Below, one piece after another: positions 1,085-13,498 of a stretch of 43,365 nt of DNA; positions within the stretch are counted from its first letter, which is position 1; each line of letters begins with the position of its first letter. Both the position numbers and the translations under genes were made by a program. The notes beneath the pieces were generated by a model. It did not search any database. It was given only the letters and a program-made list of their open reading frames with translations, and was not told the origin of the DNA. Source of the stretch: Calothrix membranacea FACHB-236 (GTDB lineage Bacteria > Cyanobacteriota > Cyanobacteriia > Cyanobacteriales > Nostocaceae); the NCBI RefSeq assembly GCF_014696315.1, contig NZ_JACJPX010000067.1, positions 1 through 43,365 of the forward strand. The letters run 5' to 3'.

Positions 1085-1981
1085 TCATCTTCCTAAACTG
1101 ATAAAGGGTGCGATCGCAGCCACAAATTCTGCTGTAGATTCATAGGGTAGGACATTGCGACCAGTCAATTTAACTCCTTGTCCTTGCGGTAAATAAGCGA
1201 GGTAGTTAGCTAAACGTTGGTCTGGTGTTTCGGCTTGACCTTCTTTGCTAATATTCGATGCTTTGTCTCCCACCACTACTAATGTTGGTTGTTGAATAGC
1301 GGCGATATCATCACTGTAATCCTGTCGCCAAAACCCTGCTAAAAAAGAAAAAACTGCATAGCGATTGGCAGTATTTTCTGCACCTTTAACTAAAGTATTT
1401 AACCACTCTTGATCAGCTGTCTCACTGCTAGCAAATAGTTGGCGAGTGGAAAAAGAACGTAGAAACTTGGGAGTGCGTGCATAAAGATAAAAAGCATTCC
1501 CAAGTGGTGAATCAAAAAGATTCCAAGCTAGCTTTTGCTGCCAAGTTGGTGATTGTTTCGTCATAATCGGCCAAGCTGGAGGACTAGCAAATACTAAGGA
1601 GTGAATCAAATTTGGTGCGATTTGCACTAATTTAGTTGCAATGCTCAATAAAGCACCTTGCACTATGACAATTACAGGCTTTTGCACCACTGTTTTTAAG
1701 AAGTAATGCAGCTGTTCTGCCCAATCGCTAGGAGTATAAGCGACGTGAGGCATATCACTTTCACCACATCCTAATAAATCAGGGTTATAAATTAGATTAC
1801 GATGCCCTGCTTGATACCATTCACGACAGAATCGTTGCCAAAATTGTCGAGATAATCCCACACCTATAGGATGAATTAATAGTAGGGGGATACCTTCAGA
1901 ATTTAAATTATTTGGTTGATAAACTTCGTAAGCACAGCGATAATTGTGCCAAGTATAAAAATCTGTATAATTTGCTGCCAT
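1085..1981 (-). CDS. Alpha/beta hydrolase-fold protein lacking catalytic residues
   Basis: The 298-residue protein has the alpha/beta hydrolase pattern: a first strand ending in LLLIHPIG (about 33-40), NPDLLGCGESD (about 66-76), the nucleophile-elbow region VIVQGALLS (about 105-113) and a late acid strand LVVVGDKAS. At the elbow the usual Gly-x-Ser-x-Gly is replaced by Gln-Gly-Ala, so the expected nucleophilic serine is Ala110. The usual late histidine is replaced in TGRNVLPYES (Arg275-Asn276). The fold is clear but hydrolase activity is doubtful; it may be a binding protein or pseudoenzyme. It has no signal peptide. It stands alone, with 538 bases of repeat-rich spacer upstream. Confidence 0.85.
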   Translation of the reverse strand: MAANYTDFYTWHNYRCAYEVYQPNNLNSEGIPLLLIHPIGVGLSRQFWQRFCREWYQAGHRNLIYNPDLLGCGESDMPHVAYTPSDWAEQLHYFLKTVVQKPVIVIVQGALLSIATKLVQIAPNLIHSLVFASPPAWPIMTKQSPTWQQKLAWNLFDSPLGNAFYLYARTPKFLRSFSTRQLFASSETADQEWLNTLVKGAENTANRYAVFSFLAGFWRQDYSDDIAAIQQPTLVVVGDKASNISKEGQAETPDQRLANYLAYLPQGQGVKLTGRNVLPYESTAEFVAAIAPFISLGR

Positions 1982-6155: not shown

Positions 6156-6580
6156 AAAAACAGAGTAGCGCTAGTAATGTGATTGGGTTGCTGTAAAAGC
6201 TAGAGACTAGGGGCTAGGTAATAGTGTTGATTGCATTGGTAGCGGGTGGCGCACCACCCTATGATTGCTCTGAAGCGTCTCAATTAATGACCTTTGGCTA
6301 TTACCTCCATAGCAGAATAATATATTTGCCAGTTTAGTAAGTCGCGGAATTGTCAAATTTTTGAGACTTCAGCAATTCCCATACCCATCACCTAAAAATA
6401 TTTGTTAGCTTATCTAAATCTTAATAGTTACAAGTCAGTGACAGAAAAACCCATAACCAAGGGATGAGTTGTACAGACGCGATTAATCGCGTCTCTCCAA
6501 GATTCCCCTTATCCCCCTGCTCCCTGCCCCTCTGCTCCCTTCACGAGCAGCTTTTAACCACACACGAGATAATTCAGGTC
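6156..6580. other. Intergenic region upstream of the aroF leader
   Basis: The gap holds a perfect short palindrome GGGTGGCGCACCACCC near 6244-6260 and a dispersed palindrome AGACGCGATTAATCGCGTCT near 6475-6495, related to the one at 22832-22856. A C-rich STRR tract follows to about 6540. No gene is supported. Confidence 0.5.
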
Positions 6581-6609
6581 TTGACGCAAGGAACTGTGTC
6601 TGTTATTGT
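6581..6609 (+). promoter_or_regulatory. Candidate sigma-70-type promoter of the aroF leader
   Basis: TTGACG (6581-6586) and TATTGT (6604-6609) are separated by 17 bases. Initiation near 6616 would give a leader of about 360 bases containing both leader peptides and both attenuator structures. No mapped start is available. Confidence 0.45.
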
Positions 6610-6667
6610 GGCTCTTATATTAGGTTTACATCGGTTTACATCAAAAATTATCTAGTTAAGTACTGTA

Positions 6668-6727
6668 ATGATTTCCAGCAGCAAATCCTATTTTTATTTT
6701 TGGCAAAAGGCGGTTCACCGGCGGTGA
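6668..6727 (+). CDS. Leader peptide 1 of the aroF attenuator (aromatic-rich, 19 aa)
   Basis: ATG at 6668 opens a 19-codon frame ending in TGA at 6725-6727. It reads MISSSKSYFYFWQKAVHRR, with five consecutive aromatic codons (Tyr-Phe-Tyr-Phe-Trp, 6689-6703). The frame runs into the left arm of the antiterminator stem (6710-6719), and its stop lies at the base of the inner hairpin, so ribosome position would control folding. This is the layout of classical amino-acid biosynthesis leader peptides (trp and phe operons). It shares an S-x-YFW-x-(K/R)-A core with leader peptide 2. No strong Shine-Dalgarno site is visible. Translation and control are inferred; the codons and pairing are seen directly. 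Confidence 0.8.
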   Translation: MISSSKSYFYFWQKAVHRR

Positions 6728-6761
6728 ATAGTTTCCTAATGGAAACCGCCAGGTGAACCGC
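6710..6761 (+). promoter_or_regulatory. Antiterminator stem of attenuator 1
   Basis: GCGGTTCACC (6710-6719) is perfectly complementary to GGTGAACCGC (6752-6761). Directly inside, GGCGG (6720-6724) pairs with CCGCC (6746-6750), and TTTCC pairs with GGAAA. The right arm shares AACCGC (6756-6761) with the following terminator, so the two folds exclude each other. Confidence 0.8.
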
Positions 6762-6789
6762 AGAGCAACCTCTGCGGTTTTTGTTTTTT
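6756..6789 (+). terminator. Intrinsic terminator of attenuator 1
   Basis: AACCGCAGAG (6756-6765) and CTCTGCGGTT (6770-6779) form a perfect 10-bp stem with a CAAC loop. A T-rich tract follows (TTTTTGTTTTTT, 6778-6789). It lies more than 180 bases before aroF and is positioned to end transcription early. Confidence 0.88.
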
Positions 6790-6807
6790 CAGGAGTATTT
6801 CGTCGTC

Positions 6808-6870
6808 ATGATCTATTGCGGTAGCTGGTTTTATAGCTTTTACTTTTGGCCCAGAGCAAGTTCCGGGTAA
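6808..6870 (+). CDS. Leader peptide 2 of the aroF attenuator (aromatic-rich, 20 aa)
   Basis: ATG at 6808 opens a 20-codon frame ending in TAA at 6868-6870. Eight of the 20 residues are Trp, Tyr or Phe: Tyr3, then WFYSFYFW at residues 7-14, followed by PRASSG. The last four codons form the left arm (6859-6868) of the second antiterminator. AGGAG at 6791-6795 is a candidate ribosome site, 12 bases before the ATG, which is rather far. The similarity to leader peptide 1 suggests an ancestral duplication of the whole attenuator. No standard search would call it because of its length. Confidence 0.82.
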   Translation: MIYCGSWFYSFYFWPRASSG

Positions 6871-6908
6871 ATAGCGTCATGTCGATAAATCACAACGCAC
6901 CCGGAACT
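6859..6908 (+). promoter_or_regulatory. Antiterminator stem of attenuator 2
   Basis: AGTTCCGGGT (6859-6868) is perfectly complementary to ACCCGGAACT (6899-6908). A ribosome finishing leader peptide 2 would cover the left arm and free the right arm for the terminator. A ribosome stalled at the aromatic codons would leave most of it free. Confidence 0.8.
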
Positions 6909-6934
6909 CACAAGATGAGATTCCGGGTTTTTTG
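6899..6934 (+). terminator. Intrinsic terminator of attenuator 2
   Basis: ACCCGGAA-CTC (6899-6909) pairs with GAG-A-TTCCGGGT (6917-6928), leaving one bulged A, a seven-base loop and a T6 run (6928-6933). The left arm is the same sequence used by the antiterminator, so the folds compete. The DAHP synthase start follows 43 bases later. Confidence 0.88.
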
Positions 6935-6976
6935 TTATCCATCAACCTCATATCCCAATACAAGGAAAATTTCACC

Positions 6977-7849
6977 ATGATTAACGCCAAACTCGCCGCT
7001 CAATCCCATCCTAGCCACCAAACAATTGTTAAACTCTCAGAAACAGTCAGCTTCGGTGGTGAAGAATTAGTGATTATTGGTGGCCCCTGTACAGTAGAAA
7101 GCTTAGAACAAATGGAAACAGTAGCCCAAAAGTTAGCGGCTGCACCTGTACAGGCTTTGCGTGGTGGTGTCTACAAACCCCGCACATCTCCCTACGCTTT
7201 CCAAGGTATGGGAGAAGCAGGATTAGAAGTTTTGGCAGAAGTGCGATCGCGCTACAATATCCCAGTCATCACAGAAGTGATGTCAATTGCTCAAATTGAA
7301 GTAGTCGCAGCTCATGCTGATATGTTGCAAGTTGGTAGCCGCAATATGCAAAACTTCGACTTACTCAAAGCTTTGGGACAAGCTGGGAAACCGATATTAC
7401 TTAAGCGCGGACTAGCGGCGACAATTGAAGAATTCGTGATGGCTGCTGAATATATTTTGAGTCACGGTAATCCGGATGTGGTGCTGTGCGAGCGAGGTAT
7501 CCGCAGCTTCGATAATTACACCCGCAATGTACTGGACTTGGGTGCAGTAGCAGCTCTCAAGCAAATTACTCACCTACCCGTGATTGTAGATCCATCCCAT
7601 GCTGTAGGTAAACGGGAATTAGTAGCACCTATGGCTAAGGCTGCTATAGCTTGTGGCGCAGATGGCTTAATTATTGAGTGTCACCCAGAACCAGAAAAAT
7701 CTGTCTCTGATGCACGCCAAGCTTTGTCCTTAGAAGACATGGTGAATTTGGTTGCAAGCCTCAAGCCTTTAGCCACAGCAGTTGGACGCAATATTTCAGA
7801 TTTAGGGGTGGGTGTAAAATCTGCCCCTATTTTTTGCGCGGCGGCGTAA
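6977..7849 (+). CDS. aroF: 3-deoxy-7-phosphoheptulonate (DAHP) synthase, type I-beta
   Basis: The enzyme condenses phosphoenolpyruvate and erythrose 4-phosphate, the first step of the shikimate pathway to Phe, Tyr and Trp. The 290-residue protein is essentially the bare TIM barrel: [10 protein letters not shown] (33-42, metal-binding Cys38), [16 protein letters not shown] (62-77), [16 protein letters not shown] and IIECHPEPE. Only about 30 residues precede the barrel and nothing extends past it, so neither the N-terminal ferredoxin-like regulatory domain (Thermotoga type) nor a fused chorismate mutase (Bacillus type) is present. The ATG at 6977 with AAGGA at 6962-6966 is preferred. The frame stays open to a TTG at 6932, but that lies in the terminator T-run. 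Expression is probably governed by the two upstream attenuators. Confidence 0.95.
7803..7835 (+). terminator. Possible terminator inside the 3' end of aroF
   Basis: TAGGGG (7803-7808) and CCCCTA (7824-7829) form a short stem followed by TTTTTT, ending 12 bases before the stop codon. The stem is only six pairs, so function is uncertain. Confidence 0.35.
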
Positions 7850-9726: not shown

Positions 9727-9954
9727 ATGATGAAAGACAAACAAAAAAGCCTAGATGATCTCAATTTCGTCACTGAACTGAGTATGAGTGAGTTAGAAGG
9801 AATCAGTGGCGGTGCTAGCAATGATTTAACTTCACCTCGAAAACCAATTATTGTTGGTGGACAGGCATCTTTGTCACCTACACCTTATGTACCACCAGAA
9901 GAAGATGAACCATTACCCCAAACTATAGATCCAACTTCAAGACTAACCTTTTGA
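9727..9954 (+). CDS. Double-glycine leader peptide (bacteriocin/RiPP-like precursor)
   Basis: This is a 75-residue peptide. Its first half, DDLNFVTELSMSELEGISGG, has the hydrophobic/Glu pattern and Gly-Gly end of double-glycine leaders cut by C39 peptidase-type ABC exporters. The remaining 46 residues are Pro-rich and acidic (PYVPPEEDEPLPQ) and contain no cysteine, so lanthionine or disulfide maturation is unlikely. The ATG at 9727 or 9730 follows an AGAGGT ribosome site. The stop is 67 bases before the FHA-like exoprotein on the same strand, so they may be cotranscribed. No exporter or modifying enzyme is in the window. It could be a secreted peptide, a signal, or a protein that only borrows the leader. 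Confidence 0.72.
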   Translation: MMKDKQKSLDDLNFVTELSMSELEGISGGASNDLTSPRKPIIVGGQASLSPTPYVPPEEDEPLPQTIDPTSRLTF

Positions 9955-10021: not shown

Positions 10022-13000
10022 ATGGCAATCATGGGTTTTATTTGGTCAAATTGGTGCTGGTGGTTGAGAGTAACCAGTTTCTTAGCCGTATGTGGAGTAT
10101 ATGCTGCATCCGGAAATTTTGCCAAAGCTCAGATTACCCCTGATTCTACTTTAGGTGCAGAAAGTTCTCAGATCATCCCAAATGTCAGTATAGATGGTCT
10201 TCCTGCTGACCAAATTGATGGCGGAGCTAGGCGAGGTGCGAGTCTATTTCATAGTTTTCAACAATTCAATGTTGGTGAAGGACAACGAGTCTTTTTCACT
10301 AATCCCGCAGGAATTGAAAACATATTTAGTCGAGTGACTGGAACTAACCCATCAACAATTCTCGGAACCCTGGGTATCAACGGTGGAGCAAATCTATTTT
10401 TACTGAATCCCAATGGCATTATTTTTGGCCCTAATGCCAGACTTGACATCCGTGGTTCTTTTGTGGGAAGTACCGCCAATAGTATCAAATTTAATGATGG
10501 GATAGAATTTAGCACCATTAATCCGGCTGCGCCGCCTTTATTAACGCTCAATGTTCCAATTGGCTTGCAATATGGACAAGATCCAGGCAGGATTTTGGTA
10601 CAAGGGCAAGGTAATGAACTGATAGTTAATCAAGATACTGGTAAAGTACTGGAAGTTAATCGCACTGGTGGCTTGGAGGTGGGGACTGCTCAAACTTTGG
10701 CTTTAGCTGGTGGTGAAGTCGTGCTGGAAGGCGGAAGTTTAAGGGCTGAATCAGGGCGAGTTGAAGTTTGGAGTATCCAAGGGGGGGGTTTAGTTGGTAT
10801 TACCCCAACAAACCCAGGCTGGGAGTTGAGTAATCAGGGTGTAGAGAATTTCCAAGATATTCGCCTCTCCCAAACTGCTGCTATTGATACTAGCGGTGCG
10901 GGAGGTGGCAAGATTCAAATGCAAGGGCGGCGAGTAGCCCTAGAAGATGGTTCTTTGGTTTTGTCGCTCACACAGGGTGAGAAAAGCGGCGGAAGTATCA
11001 GTATCAAAGGTTCTGAGTCTATCCAGGCAAGTGGAAACGCGCCTAATGGTGAAGCTAGTGTCTTTTTAACTGAAACAACAGGTATTGGAAAAGCCGGTGA
11101 TGTAGAAATCAATACAGGTAGCTTGATTCTCCAAAATGGAGCGCAAGTATCATCTAGTACTTTTAATCAAGGTGGTGCCGGTAAAATTGTTGTCAACGCC
11201 TCAGAGTTATTTACAGCAACAGGAATTACTGCAACTGGAAAATTTAGCAGTGGCTTATATTCTGTAACCCGTAACAGTAGTGGTGATAGCGGTACAGTAG
11301 AAGTAACAACGAAGCGGGTGGTACTCCAAGATCAGGCTCAAGTAAGCGCTACCACTTTTAGTCCGGGGCGTGGCGGAAATGTGCTGGTGAAAGCTGCTGA
11401 ATCAGTAGAAGCAATTGGATCTAGCGGCTTATTTGCTTCGAGTCAGAGTAGTGGTGATAGCGGCAGAGTAGAAATTAACACAGGAAAATTGATACTCCAG
11501 AATGGTTCACAGATAAATGCTTCTGCATTTAAAGAAGGTAATGGTGGCGATGTGCTAGTCAATGCAGATATATCTGTAGAAGTGATTGGCATTGCCGCAG
11601 AGGGAAATTTTCCCAGCAGCTTGACAGCACAAACTCAAGGTGAAGGGCAAGGCGGTACAGTAGAGATTAATACAGGAAAGCTGATACTCCAAAATGGTGG
11701 ACAAGTAAGCGCCGCAACTATCACTCAGGGTCTTGGTGGCGATGTGCTAGTCAATGCGAGGGACTCTGTAGAAGTGACTGGTATGGCTGAAAATGGGAGT
11801 TTTCCTAGTATTTTGATAGCACAAACTCAAGGTGCGGGGAAAGGCGGTACAGTAGAGATTAACACAGGAAAGCTAATCCTCCAAGATGGTGGACAGATCA
11901 GTGCCACAACTCTAAATCAGGGTCTTGGAGGTGATATCATCGTCAACGCTGCGGATTCAGTAGAAGTGATTGGCGTTTCTCAAAATGGTAGATTTTCCAG
12001 TGGTTTGAGAGTACAAACCGGAGGCACTGGCGATGGTGGAACTGTGTCAATTAACACAGGAAAGCTGATTATCCAAGACAGAGGACGGATAACTACCACA
12101 ACGTTAAATGAAGGTCGCGGCGGTAATATAGTCGTAAATGCAACAGAATCGGTAGAAACAATTGGTTTTACCAGTGGTTTGAGAGTACAGTCACAAGGCG
12201 CTGGAAATGGCGGTAGTTTATCAATCAATACTAGAAGGTTTCTGGCCAGCAAAGGAGCGCAAAATTTAGCTACTGCTTTTAATAAAGGCAATGGTGGAAA
12301 TATTCACATCCAGGCTTCAAAAGTAGAATTAATTGGCACGGCGGAGACTGGCGAACCTACCACTGTGTTTGCTACTACTCGCAGTGAGGGCAATGGTGGT
12401 GAAGTCACAATTAACACAGATAAATTAATTGTCCAAGGAGGAGCGCAAGTAGGCGCAGGGACTTTTAGTAGCGGTCAAGGTGGTAATGTTTTTGTCAAAG
12501 CTGCTGATATCGTAGAATTGGTTGGCACAGTTCCACAGGTTGCCAATCGAAATTTTTTCCGAGATCAATCTGGTGAACAGTTTCCCAGTGGTTTATTTAC
12601 TGGCTCTGAAGGTACTGGGGGTGCGGGAAATTTAAGGGTTGAGACCAAAAATTTAACGCTGCGAGATGGCGCTGCAATTAGTGTGAACAACCAGGGAATC
12701 GGAAATGCTGGAGATTTAGAAGTAGTAGCGCGCAACGTTTTGCTAAATAACCAAGCGGTTCTCTCAGCGACAACTACATCAGGTCAAGGCGGAAATATTG
12801 CTTTGCAAATTGGTGACTTGTTATTATTACGCCGCAATAGTCAAATTTCCACAGATGCAGGTATCGATGGGGCTGGTGGTGATGGGGGAAATATTTTAAT
12901 TGATGGTGGCTTGATAGTTGCAATCCCTAATGAAGATAGCGATATCACTGCTAACGCCTACCAAGGGCGGGGAGGTAATATCAATATTACTACTCAAGGT

Positions 13001-13498
13001 ATCTTTGGTTTGGAATTTCGCGATCGCATAACCTCTTTGAGCGATATTACTGTTAGTTCTCAGTTTGGGTTAGATGGCATCTTTGAAATTGATATTTTGG
13101 ATGTTGACCCACGCCAAGGATTAACTGAATTACCCGCAGATATTATTGATGTTTCTAGCCTAATTGAACAGGACTTCTGCCGTGTTGTTGGCAAGGATAG
13201 CGCATTTATAGTTACAGGTCGTGGCGGTTTACCTAGTTCTCCCAACGAACCCCTCAGCAATAATGCGCCTTGGGACGATTTGCGCTTAGTAGAGGAAAGT
13301 ACAGCAGTATCTCAACTCCCCCCAGCATCTAGGCGCGAACAACCAAATATCAAAGATAATCAACCAGGGAAAATTGTAGAAGCCCAAGGTTGGATTACTA
13401 CCCCGAATGGCAATTTGCTGCTGACAGCGGAACCAGTGAGAGTTACCCCGCAAGGGCTGTGGTTGCATCCCTTGGATTGTCAGGCGTGGAGGGGGTGA
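10022..13498 (+). CDS. Filamentous hemagglutinin-like exoprotein (two-partner secretion TpsA type)
   Basis: The 1158-residue protein is a likely surface or secreted beta-helix adhesin. An extended signal peptide (about 1-36) ends in AKA before QITPDSTLG. The FHA/TPS secretion domain follows (about 40-310), with FTNPAGIENIFSRVTG, LFLLNPNGIIFGPNARLDI and GSFVGSTA. Residues about 310-950 are imperfect repeats built on INTGKLILQNGGQVSA and GGDVLVNA, typical of a long right-handed beta helix. The C-terminal part (about 1020-1158) has ELPADIIDVSSLIEQDFC and EAQGWITTPNGNLLLTA, a tail common to cyanobacterial members. Secretion would need a TpsB/Omp85-type partner, which is absent here. A CHAT-domain gene follows 151 bases later and a double-glycine peptide gene precedes it. 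Confidence 0.93.
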   Translation: MAIMGFIWSNWCWWLRVTSFLAVCGVYAASGNFAKAQITPDSTLGAESSQIIPNVSIDGLPADQIDGGARRGASLFHSFQQFNVGEGQRVFFTNPAGIENIFSRVTGTNPSTILGTLGINGGANLFLLNPNGIIFGPNARLDIRGSFVGSTANSIKFNDGIEFSTINPAAPPLLTLNVPIGLQYGQDPGRILVQGQGNELIVNQDTGKVLEVNRTGGLEVGTAQTLALAGGEVVLEGGSLRAESGRVEVWSIQGGGLVGITPTNPGWELSNQGVENFQDIRLSQTAAIDTSGAGGGKIQMQGRRVALEDGSLVLSLTQGEKSGGSISIKGSESIQASGNAPNGEASVFLTETTGIGKAGDVEINTGSLILQNGAQVSSSTFNQGGAGKIVVNASELFTATGITATGKFSSGLYSVTRNSSGDSGTVEVTTKRVVLQDQAQVSATTFSPGRGGNVLVKAAESVEAIGSSGLFASSQSSGDSGRVEINTGKLILQNGSQINASAFKEGNGGDVLVNADISVEVIGIAAEGNFPSSLTAQTQGEGQGGTVEINTGKLILQNGGQVSAATITQGLGGDVLVNARDSVEVTGMAENGSFPSILIAQTQGAGKGGTVEINTGKLILQDGGQISATTLNQGLGGDIIVNAADSVEVIGVSQNGRFSSGLRVQTGGTGDGGTVSINTGKLIIQDRGRITTTTLNEGRGGNIVVNATESVETIGFTSGLRVQSQGAGNGGSLSINTRRFLASKGAQNLATAFNKGNGGNIHIQASKVELIGTAETGEPTTVFATTRSEGNGGEVTINTDKLIVQGGAQVGAGTFSSGQGGNVFVKAADIVELVGTVPQVANRNFFRDQSGEQFPSGLFTGSEGTGGAGNLRVETKNLTLRDGAAISVNNQGIGNAGDLEVVARNVLLNNQAVLSATTTSGQGGNIALQIGDLLLLRRNSQISTDAGIDGAGGDGGNILIDGGLIVAIPNEDSDITANAYQGRGGNINITTQGIFGLEFRDRITSLSDITVSSQFGLDGIFEIDILDVDPRQGLTELPADIIDVSSLIEQDFCRVVGKDSAFIVTGRGGLPSSPNEPLSNNAPWDDLRLVEESTAVSQLPPASRREQPNIKDNQPGKIVEAQGWITTPNGNLLLTAEPVRVTPQGLWLHPLDCQAWRG

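Follow-up and report, generated by a model that had tools for sequence, protein, structure and literature searches.

Organization of the leader region

A 43,365-nt stretch of the Calothrix membranacea FACHB-236 genome, referred to as the window, carries an aroF-like gene coding for a DAHP synthase of 290 amino acids (6977..7849, + strand) and, upstream of it, two short reading frames with runs of aromatic codons. This arrangement poses the question whether the gene is controlled by ribosome-mediated attenuation, and why such a device should be present twice. The initial annotation had read the region as two leader-peptide attenuators in series. Conservation and covariation throughout the class Cyanobacteriia support this reading, and on the basis of sequence comparison we consider it probable (roughly 0.85) that two ribosome-mediated transcription attenuators precede the DAHP synthase gene in series.

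The features follow each other on the + strand in the order promoter, leader ORF1, antiterminator/terminator 1, leader ORF2, antiterminator/terminator 2, and DAHP synthase gene. Both leader frames, ORF1 (6668..6727, MISSSKSYFYFWQKAVHRR) and ORF2 (6808..6870, MIYCGSWFYSFYFWPRASSG), are present as annotated and are conserved in relatives. The left side of antiterminator 1 (6710..6725) is composed of a left arm at 6710-6719 (GCGGTTCACC) and an inner extension at 6720-6725; the former pairs with the outer part (6752-6761, GGTGAACCGC) and the latter with the inner part (6745-6750) of the right side, which spans 6745..6761. Positions 6756-6761 are common to terminator 1 (6756..6789), consisting of a stem at 6756-6779 and a T-rich tail that extends to 6789. 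In device 2, a left arm at 6859..6868 (AGTTCCGGGT) faces a right arm at 6899..6908 (ACCCGGAACT), which also is part of terminator 2 (6899..6933; stem 6899-6928, T-run 6928-6933). The proposed sharing of each antiterminator right arm with a terminator was borne out for both devices by pairing and covariation as well as by masked folding. Folding of the leader RNA as a whole (6620-6976) is 3.5 standard deviations below that of 100 dinucleotide shuffles, none of which was as good (0/100).

A likely promoter is located at 6581..6609 (+ strand), with a -35 element TTGACG at 6581-6586 and an extended -10 element TG-T-TATTGT at 6601-6609. The pattern scan alone was not above chance (1 found, 1.3 expected); the TTGAC...TGnTA arrangement is kept in 29 aligned Nostocales and related loci. 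In the window, the end of the -10 element lies 58 nt upstream of ORF1, and only 18 nt separate the end of terminator 1 from ORF2. The stop codons of ORF1 and ORF2 are 142-153 nt apart in most loci of the Nostocales set described below. A second promoter between the devices was considered and rejected, because this short spacing leaves no room for it in most loci, and the two devices are thus presumably transcribed in series; a few loci have longer inter-device spacers of up to 361 nt. Five loci (L069, L034, L017, L019, L024) contain extra sequence of about 200 to 550 nt, inserted between ORF2 and the start of the gene, which brings the ORF2-to-gene distance to 300 to 660 nt as compared to about 100 nt in the window.

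Occurrence in Nostocales and in the class Cyanobacteriia

The Nostocales set comprises the best 80 of a larger number of loci from a genome scan, plus the window (81 loci); nearly all belong to Nostocales, the few exceptions including Trichocoleus and an Oscillatoriaceae MAG. Three loci with at most 102 nt of upstream DNA (L006, L011, L045) were left out of the leader count. Both leaders are present in all 78 loci with enough upstream DNA, 77 being recognized by pattern and one (L002, whose second leader peptide ends in Arg) by eye. On the reverse complement of the upstream regions the leader-pair pattern was found in 0 of 224 cases. Since the leader patterns missed some leaders, additions made by eye are counted separately.

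The class set consists of 388 genomes drawn from Cyanobacteriia. A covariance model of device 2, built from 36 sequences and applied at E values up to 0.1, matches 117 of these genomes, and a model of device 1, applied at E values up to 0.01, matches 141, in each case at one place per genome. All but one (G261) of the 117 device 2 places were retrieved. Among the first 108 device 2 loci, the orthologue of the DAHP synthase gene is located downstream in 107, while the remaining one, L168, stops with its contig. A protein search of the 388 genomes distinguishes this orthologue (63-91% identity, the own genome aside) from paralogues with about 55% identity and, among the matches listed, assigns it to 144 genomes. 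These listed carriers include 115 of the 117 genomes with a device 2 match, the others being G109, where locus L154 holds the start of the gene, and G128, where the contig ends; they also include 138 of the 141 genomes with a device 1 match, the exceptions being the same two genomes and G116. This overlap was judged by genome handles, not by the distance between leader and gene in each case. The 29 listed carriers without a device 2 match were all inspected, and leaders are present there, too. One or the other model matches in every one of the 144 listed carriers except G321, at whose locus (L212) both leaders were recognized by eye. Both devices thus appear to occur essentially only in genomes that carry the orthologue of the gene. 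No other gene with the same leader was found by the covariance models, either in the own genome or in the 388 class genomes. An aromatic codon pattern yielded 60 matches in the own genome vs 21 in the reversed control; only the two matches in the window were inspected.

Both leaders occur in standard form in 133 of the 143 class loci that have the gene in reach (130 by pattern; L094, L152 and L212 by eye). L195 contains both devices, with a second aromatic frame that lacks a stop near the arm. Six loci have device 1 only (L197, L219, L220, L221, L222, L234), two have device 2 only (L170, L229), and L153 is truncated by the end of its contig. In two of the 133 standard loci, L092 and L152, ORF1 ends early. 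The Trp codon of ORF1 is lost in L015. Some genomes contributed to the Nostocales set as well as to the class set, and loci therefore do not equal independent lineages; distinct sequences were used in the codon, antiterminator-covariation and start-stem tests.

In G116, a remnant of the locus was observed on contig C48 (L247, about 1337-1680, reverse strand), where a deletion has joined a device 1 leader to part of the DAHP synthase gene (residues 46-104); among the matches listed, this genome has no intact orthologue.

Selection on terminators and arms, and conservation of leader codons

Terminators of -11 kcal/mol or below follow 203/215 first and 197/208 second leaders, vs 8/215 and 2/208 after one shuffle each. 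The terminator test was passed by 203/215 first and 200/208 second leaders, vs 40/215 and 28/208 for one dinucleotide shuffle each. Antiterminator pairing was evaluated by permutation, each arm being paired with arms of other genomes. For antiterminator 1 (125 distinct sequences), pairing within the genome amounts to -27.93 kcal/mol vs -23.15 kcal/mol for the permuted arms, and for antiterminator 2 (122 distinct) to -20.19 vs -17.60 kcal/mol; none of 2000 permutations reached the actual value in either case. In device 1, pairs V-1 to V+3, which are common to the terminator, show no two-sided changes at all, and pairs V+6 to V+9 show 24, 46, 8 and 15, respectively, in 114 distinct arm pairs. 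At the outer end of the stem, V-3 and V-2 are formed in just 59/114 and 62/114. Alignments of 36 rows from the Nostocales set alone had revealed some covariation for device 1, little for device 2, and none for the device 2 terminator, so that the class-wide set was needed. The initial annotation had named conservation in relatives as a check of its reading, and frames, terminators and antiterminator pairing are indeed kept, and covary, through the class.

Strong terminators would also be expected if the pair merely insulated the gene, or set a constant low level of read-through irrespective of amino acid supply. We regard this explanation as very improbable, since it accounts neither for the aromatic frames nor for antiterminator arms that covary and exclude the terminators, nor for the fixed ribosome geometry described below.

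The core codons of both leaders stay aromatic while Phe and Tyr interchange and third bases vary (132 and 138 distinct rows; these were picked by aromatic patterns, which in part builds in the degree of conservation). In ORF1, the commonest order, given with the distance from the competing bases of the arm, is Tyr (21 nt), Phe (18 nt), Tyr (15 nt), Phe (12 nt) and Trp (9 nt). The corresponding order in ORF2 is Trp (33-35 nt), Phe (30-32 nt) and Tyr (27-29 nt), followed by a Gly or Ser codon and then by Phe (21-23 nt), Tyr (18-20 nt), Phe (15-17 nt) and Trp (12-14 nt). A core of the form S-x-YFW-x-(K/R)-A, which the two peptides of the window had been thought to share, does not hold up class-wide, where the leaders have only the aromatic run in common. 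Among the Tyr codons of the ORF1 core, TAC is used at the first position in 64/80 and TAT at the third in 79/96 cases; this position-dependent choice may reflect a constraint at the RNA level.

Conserved residues might alternatively point to an arrest peptide, i.e., a nascent leader that senses a free amino acid or another ligand in the ribosome tunnel and, by stalling, sets the same switch; TnaC is an arrest peptide of this type. Residue patterns, from which this possibility was judged, lend it some plausibility, because Trp is fixed three codons before Val-His in ORF1 of 186 of the aligned leaders (the anchor of the alignment), and a Gly or Ser lies centrally in the ORF2 core in 121 of the 138 distinct rows. 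However, Phe and Tyr are freely interchanged at the core positions, the residues after the core vary, and it is the RNA arms that encode the conserved ends Val-His and Ser-Gly, so that pairing accounts for both. Sensing by the nascent peptide is unlikely on these grounds. A sensor that operates independently of the ribosome, such as a riboswitch or a T-box, with the frames lying inside by chance, would fit the strong conserved alternative stems; yet a search of the window against Rfam returned no family at the gathering score, the weak matches within 6560-6990 belong to unrelated families, and both the aromatic codons and their spacing from the arms are maintained class-wide, which makes such a sensor extremely improbable.

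Ribosome position and alternative folding

Attenuation by the ribosome requires that its position on the leader governs access to the left arm. The front edge of the ribosome was placed 12 nt beyond the A-site codon, which is the standard value. With the stop codon in the A site, all competing arm bases are covered in 203/203 loci for device 1 and in 200/200 loci for device 2, and masked folding of the window sequence with the ribosome at the stop yields terminator probabilities of 0.99 and 1.00, respectively.

Stalls at Y8, Y10, F11 and W12 were folded for device 1. With the ribosome at Y8 the two structures are almost balanced (antiterminator 0.66, terminator 0.59); at Y10 the antiterminator prevails (0.85 vs 0.18), at F11 the outcome is mixed (antiterminator 0.51, terminator 0.67), and at W12 the terminator prevails (0.90, antiterminator 0.14). 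Termination should accordingly still be possible when the ribosome halts at the device 1 Trp codon, which argues against the equivalence of the two devices assumed in the initial annotation. In device 2, the antiterminator is favoured by stalls at Y12 and F13 (0.61 and 0.85), W14 is a near tie (antiterminator 0.41 vs terminator 0.58), and with stalls at W7, F8, Y9 and F11 the equilibrium lies on the side of the terminator (0.96, 0.96, 0.98 and 0.84). Since several stalls at aromatic codons favour the terminator at equilibrium, the order in which the structures form must matter. When the device 2 transcript is cut at 6918, before the 3' arm of the terminator, the antiterminator reaches 1.00 with stalls at W7, Y12 and W14; without a ribosome it also wins at equilibrium. 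The position of the Trp codons is more favourable in device 2 than in device 1. Control by Phe and Tyr is best supported by these calculations, with a weaker case for control by Trp that would depend mainly on device 2.

From the anatomy of the locus and its ribosome geometry we infer translation of the leaders, stalling, a response to tRNA, and termination, which would combine as follows. A single promoter would start a leader RNA that covers both devices. When charged aromatic tRNAs are plentiful, a ribosome at the ORF1 stop codon would cover the left arm of antiterminator 1, allowing terminator 1 to form and ending the RNA near 6789. A stall on the Tyr or Phe codons of ORF1 would leave the left arm free, antiterminator 1 would form, and RNA polymerase would continue. 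The same decision would be repeated at ORF2 and terminator 2 (near 6933), and the DAHP synthase gene would be reached only by RNA that has passed both devices. The series arrangement might, as proposed initially, confer steep control.

A third stem in device 2

In device 2, the start region of ORF2 (6808..6829, + strand) is able to pair with 6856-6880, i.e., with the arm and the segment after the stop codon. This start-region stem is supported by covariation in relatives: with 183 distinct sequences, pairing within the genome amounts to -17.14 kcal/mol vs -13.39 kcal/mol for permuted partners (0/2000 permutations), and the class set and the Nostocales set, each taken separately, likewise gave 0/2000. 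The stem is seen in relatives of quite different sequence. The same test applied to device 1 gave -11.72 vs -11.95 kcal/mol (197 distinct sequences; 1834/2000) and indicated no covariation; this null result also serves as a control for base composition in the start-stem test. The difference in the start-region stem likewise contradicts the supposed equivalence of the two devices. A 1:2 stem is present in the enteric trp leader, and a protector stem of this trp type was found in device 2 and not in device 1.

Folding of the full device 2 of the window in the absence of a ribosome yields 0.99 for the terminator and 0.50 for the start-region stem. In the transcript cut at 6918, the start-region stem drops to 0.00, losing to the antiterminator.

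Two unlike sensors could act as a coincidence gate, with passage limited to the case in which active translation of the leader coincides with a shortage of aromatic tRNA. Device 1, with two stems and no protector, would answer to Phe and Tyr and tend to read through when untranslated, whereas device 2, with three stems, would answer to Phe, Tyr and Trp and terminate when untranslated; the pair would replace the allosteric feedback of an isozyme devoid of a regulatory domain, and would have been kept since the common ancestor of this isozyme in Cyanobacteriia. We offer this proposal tentatively, as possible but rather doubtful. The default states are its weakest part, because the cut, ribosome-free transcript of device 2 favours the antiterminator.

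Ancestry of the tandem arrangement

A protein tree of 112 rows was used to follow the history of the pair; many of its forks are unsettled, and L158 and the paralogues form long branches. A family of five rows with device 1 only (f25, 100/98) shares a group (98/90) with L229 and three tandem loci, and another group (99/88) unites L197 and L170 with the tandem locus L131. Single-device lineages thus seem to nest inside tandem ones. Because of this nesting, the tandem arrangement looks ancestral in this sample, and the single-device loci appear to be losses of either device. Such losses of either kind make the value of two attenuators in series testable by comparing relatives.

Duplication of the whole device, as postulated in the initial annotation, is not supported. 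In its own genome, the device 1 model finds only device 1 and misses device 2 even at E values up to 10 (next match, E 7.6). Each model recognizes one place per genome, and the arms are unlike. An old duplication after which all likeness was lost is conceivable.

The DAHP synthase isozyme

The enzyme encoded in the window matches the DAHP_synth_1 family and, weakly, the related NeuB family. Its paralogue in the same genome contains an additional ferredoxin-like domain (PF18152), which was detected in none of 31 orthologues scanned; no aromatic leader ORF was found in the about 320 nt upstream of the paralogue. In the available text on the Thermotoga maritima enzyme, the ferredoxin-like domain is described as binding Phe or Tyr and as restricting the active site (PMC5526877). 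The DAHP synthase without this domain may be insensitive to feedback, and the leader may take the place of feedback control in an enzyme that lacks the regulatory domain. If the attenuation reading is true, it would explain how such an enzyme is restrained. The domain-less enzyme is distributed patchily (144 carriers among the matches listed for 388 genomes), and genus g5, of the window's own family, has only the lower-identity paralogue among the matches listed. For Chlorogloeopsis, the available text describes three DAHP synthase homologues that differ in their light responses (PMC7693272).

Relation to known attenuators

A close likeness is to the aroR-aroF locus of Corynebacterium glutamicum, where, as far as the available text goes, the leader AroR with a Phe-Tyr-Phe sequence precedes the DAHP synthase operon (PMC11802643), and read-through occurs via ribosome stalling under Phe limitation (PMC11802643, citing Neshat et al. 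2014). Both systems place an aromatic leader peptide before a DAHP synthase; however, C. glutamicum has one leader by that account, whereas the cyanobacterial locus, in another phylum, has two in series, with Trp codons as well. The enteric trp and pheA leaders are likewise described as short ORFs with codons for the product amino acids (PMC11802643, in the part available). Their antiterminator and terminator are mutually exclusive, but these are single devices before end-branch genes, as opposed to two before the first enzyme of the pathway. The start-region stem of device 2 resembles the trp 1:2 stem, and device 1 has no such stem.

Tandem attenuators in the Salmonella mgtCBR leader were called a "singular example" in the available text by its authors (PMC3641672). 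The mgtCBR ORFs respond to different signals (ATP and proline), whereas both cyanobacterial devices contain aromatic codons; its authors contrast mgtCBR with a leader that has two intrinsic terminators (PMC3641672, same text), and each cyanobacterial device has a terminator of its own.

Searches of a collection of open full-text papers, which lacks most subscription papers, brought up no recognizable report of a cyanobacterial amino acid gene preceded by a leader-peptide attenuator. The available part of PMC8632094 makes no mention of this leader, nothing on attenuation, leader, DAHP or aromatic was found in PMC4734099, and the accessible part of PMC10875765, on Synechocystis, has no bearing on the leader. 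While this kind of attenuator is classical, the doubled and widely conserved version seems to be undescribed. If the proposed reading is true, a central gene in a large part of the cyanobacteria is under the control of coupling between ribosome and RNA polymerase, which could be measured by a natural reporter; the leader would then also be a control point for making aromatic compounds in these organisms.

Other features of the window

Downstream of the DAHP synthase gene, a small ORF of 75 amino acids (9727-9954, + strand) contains the sequence ...MSELEGISGG, which we take to resemble the double-glycine leader of a secreted peptide. An ORF of 1158 amino acids (10022-13498, + strand) has, as judged by eye, the appearance of a filamentous-haemagglutinin-type secreted protein with repeats.
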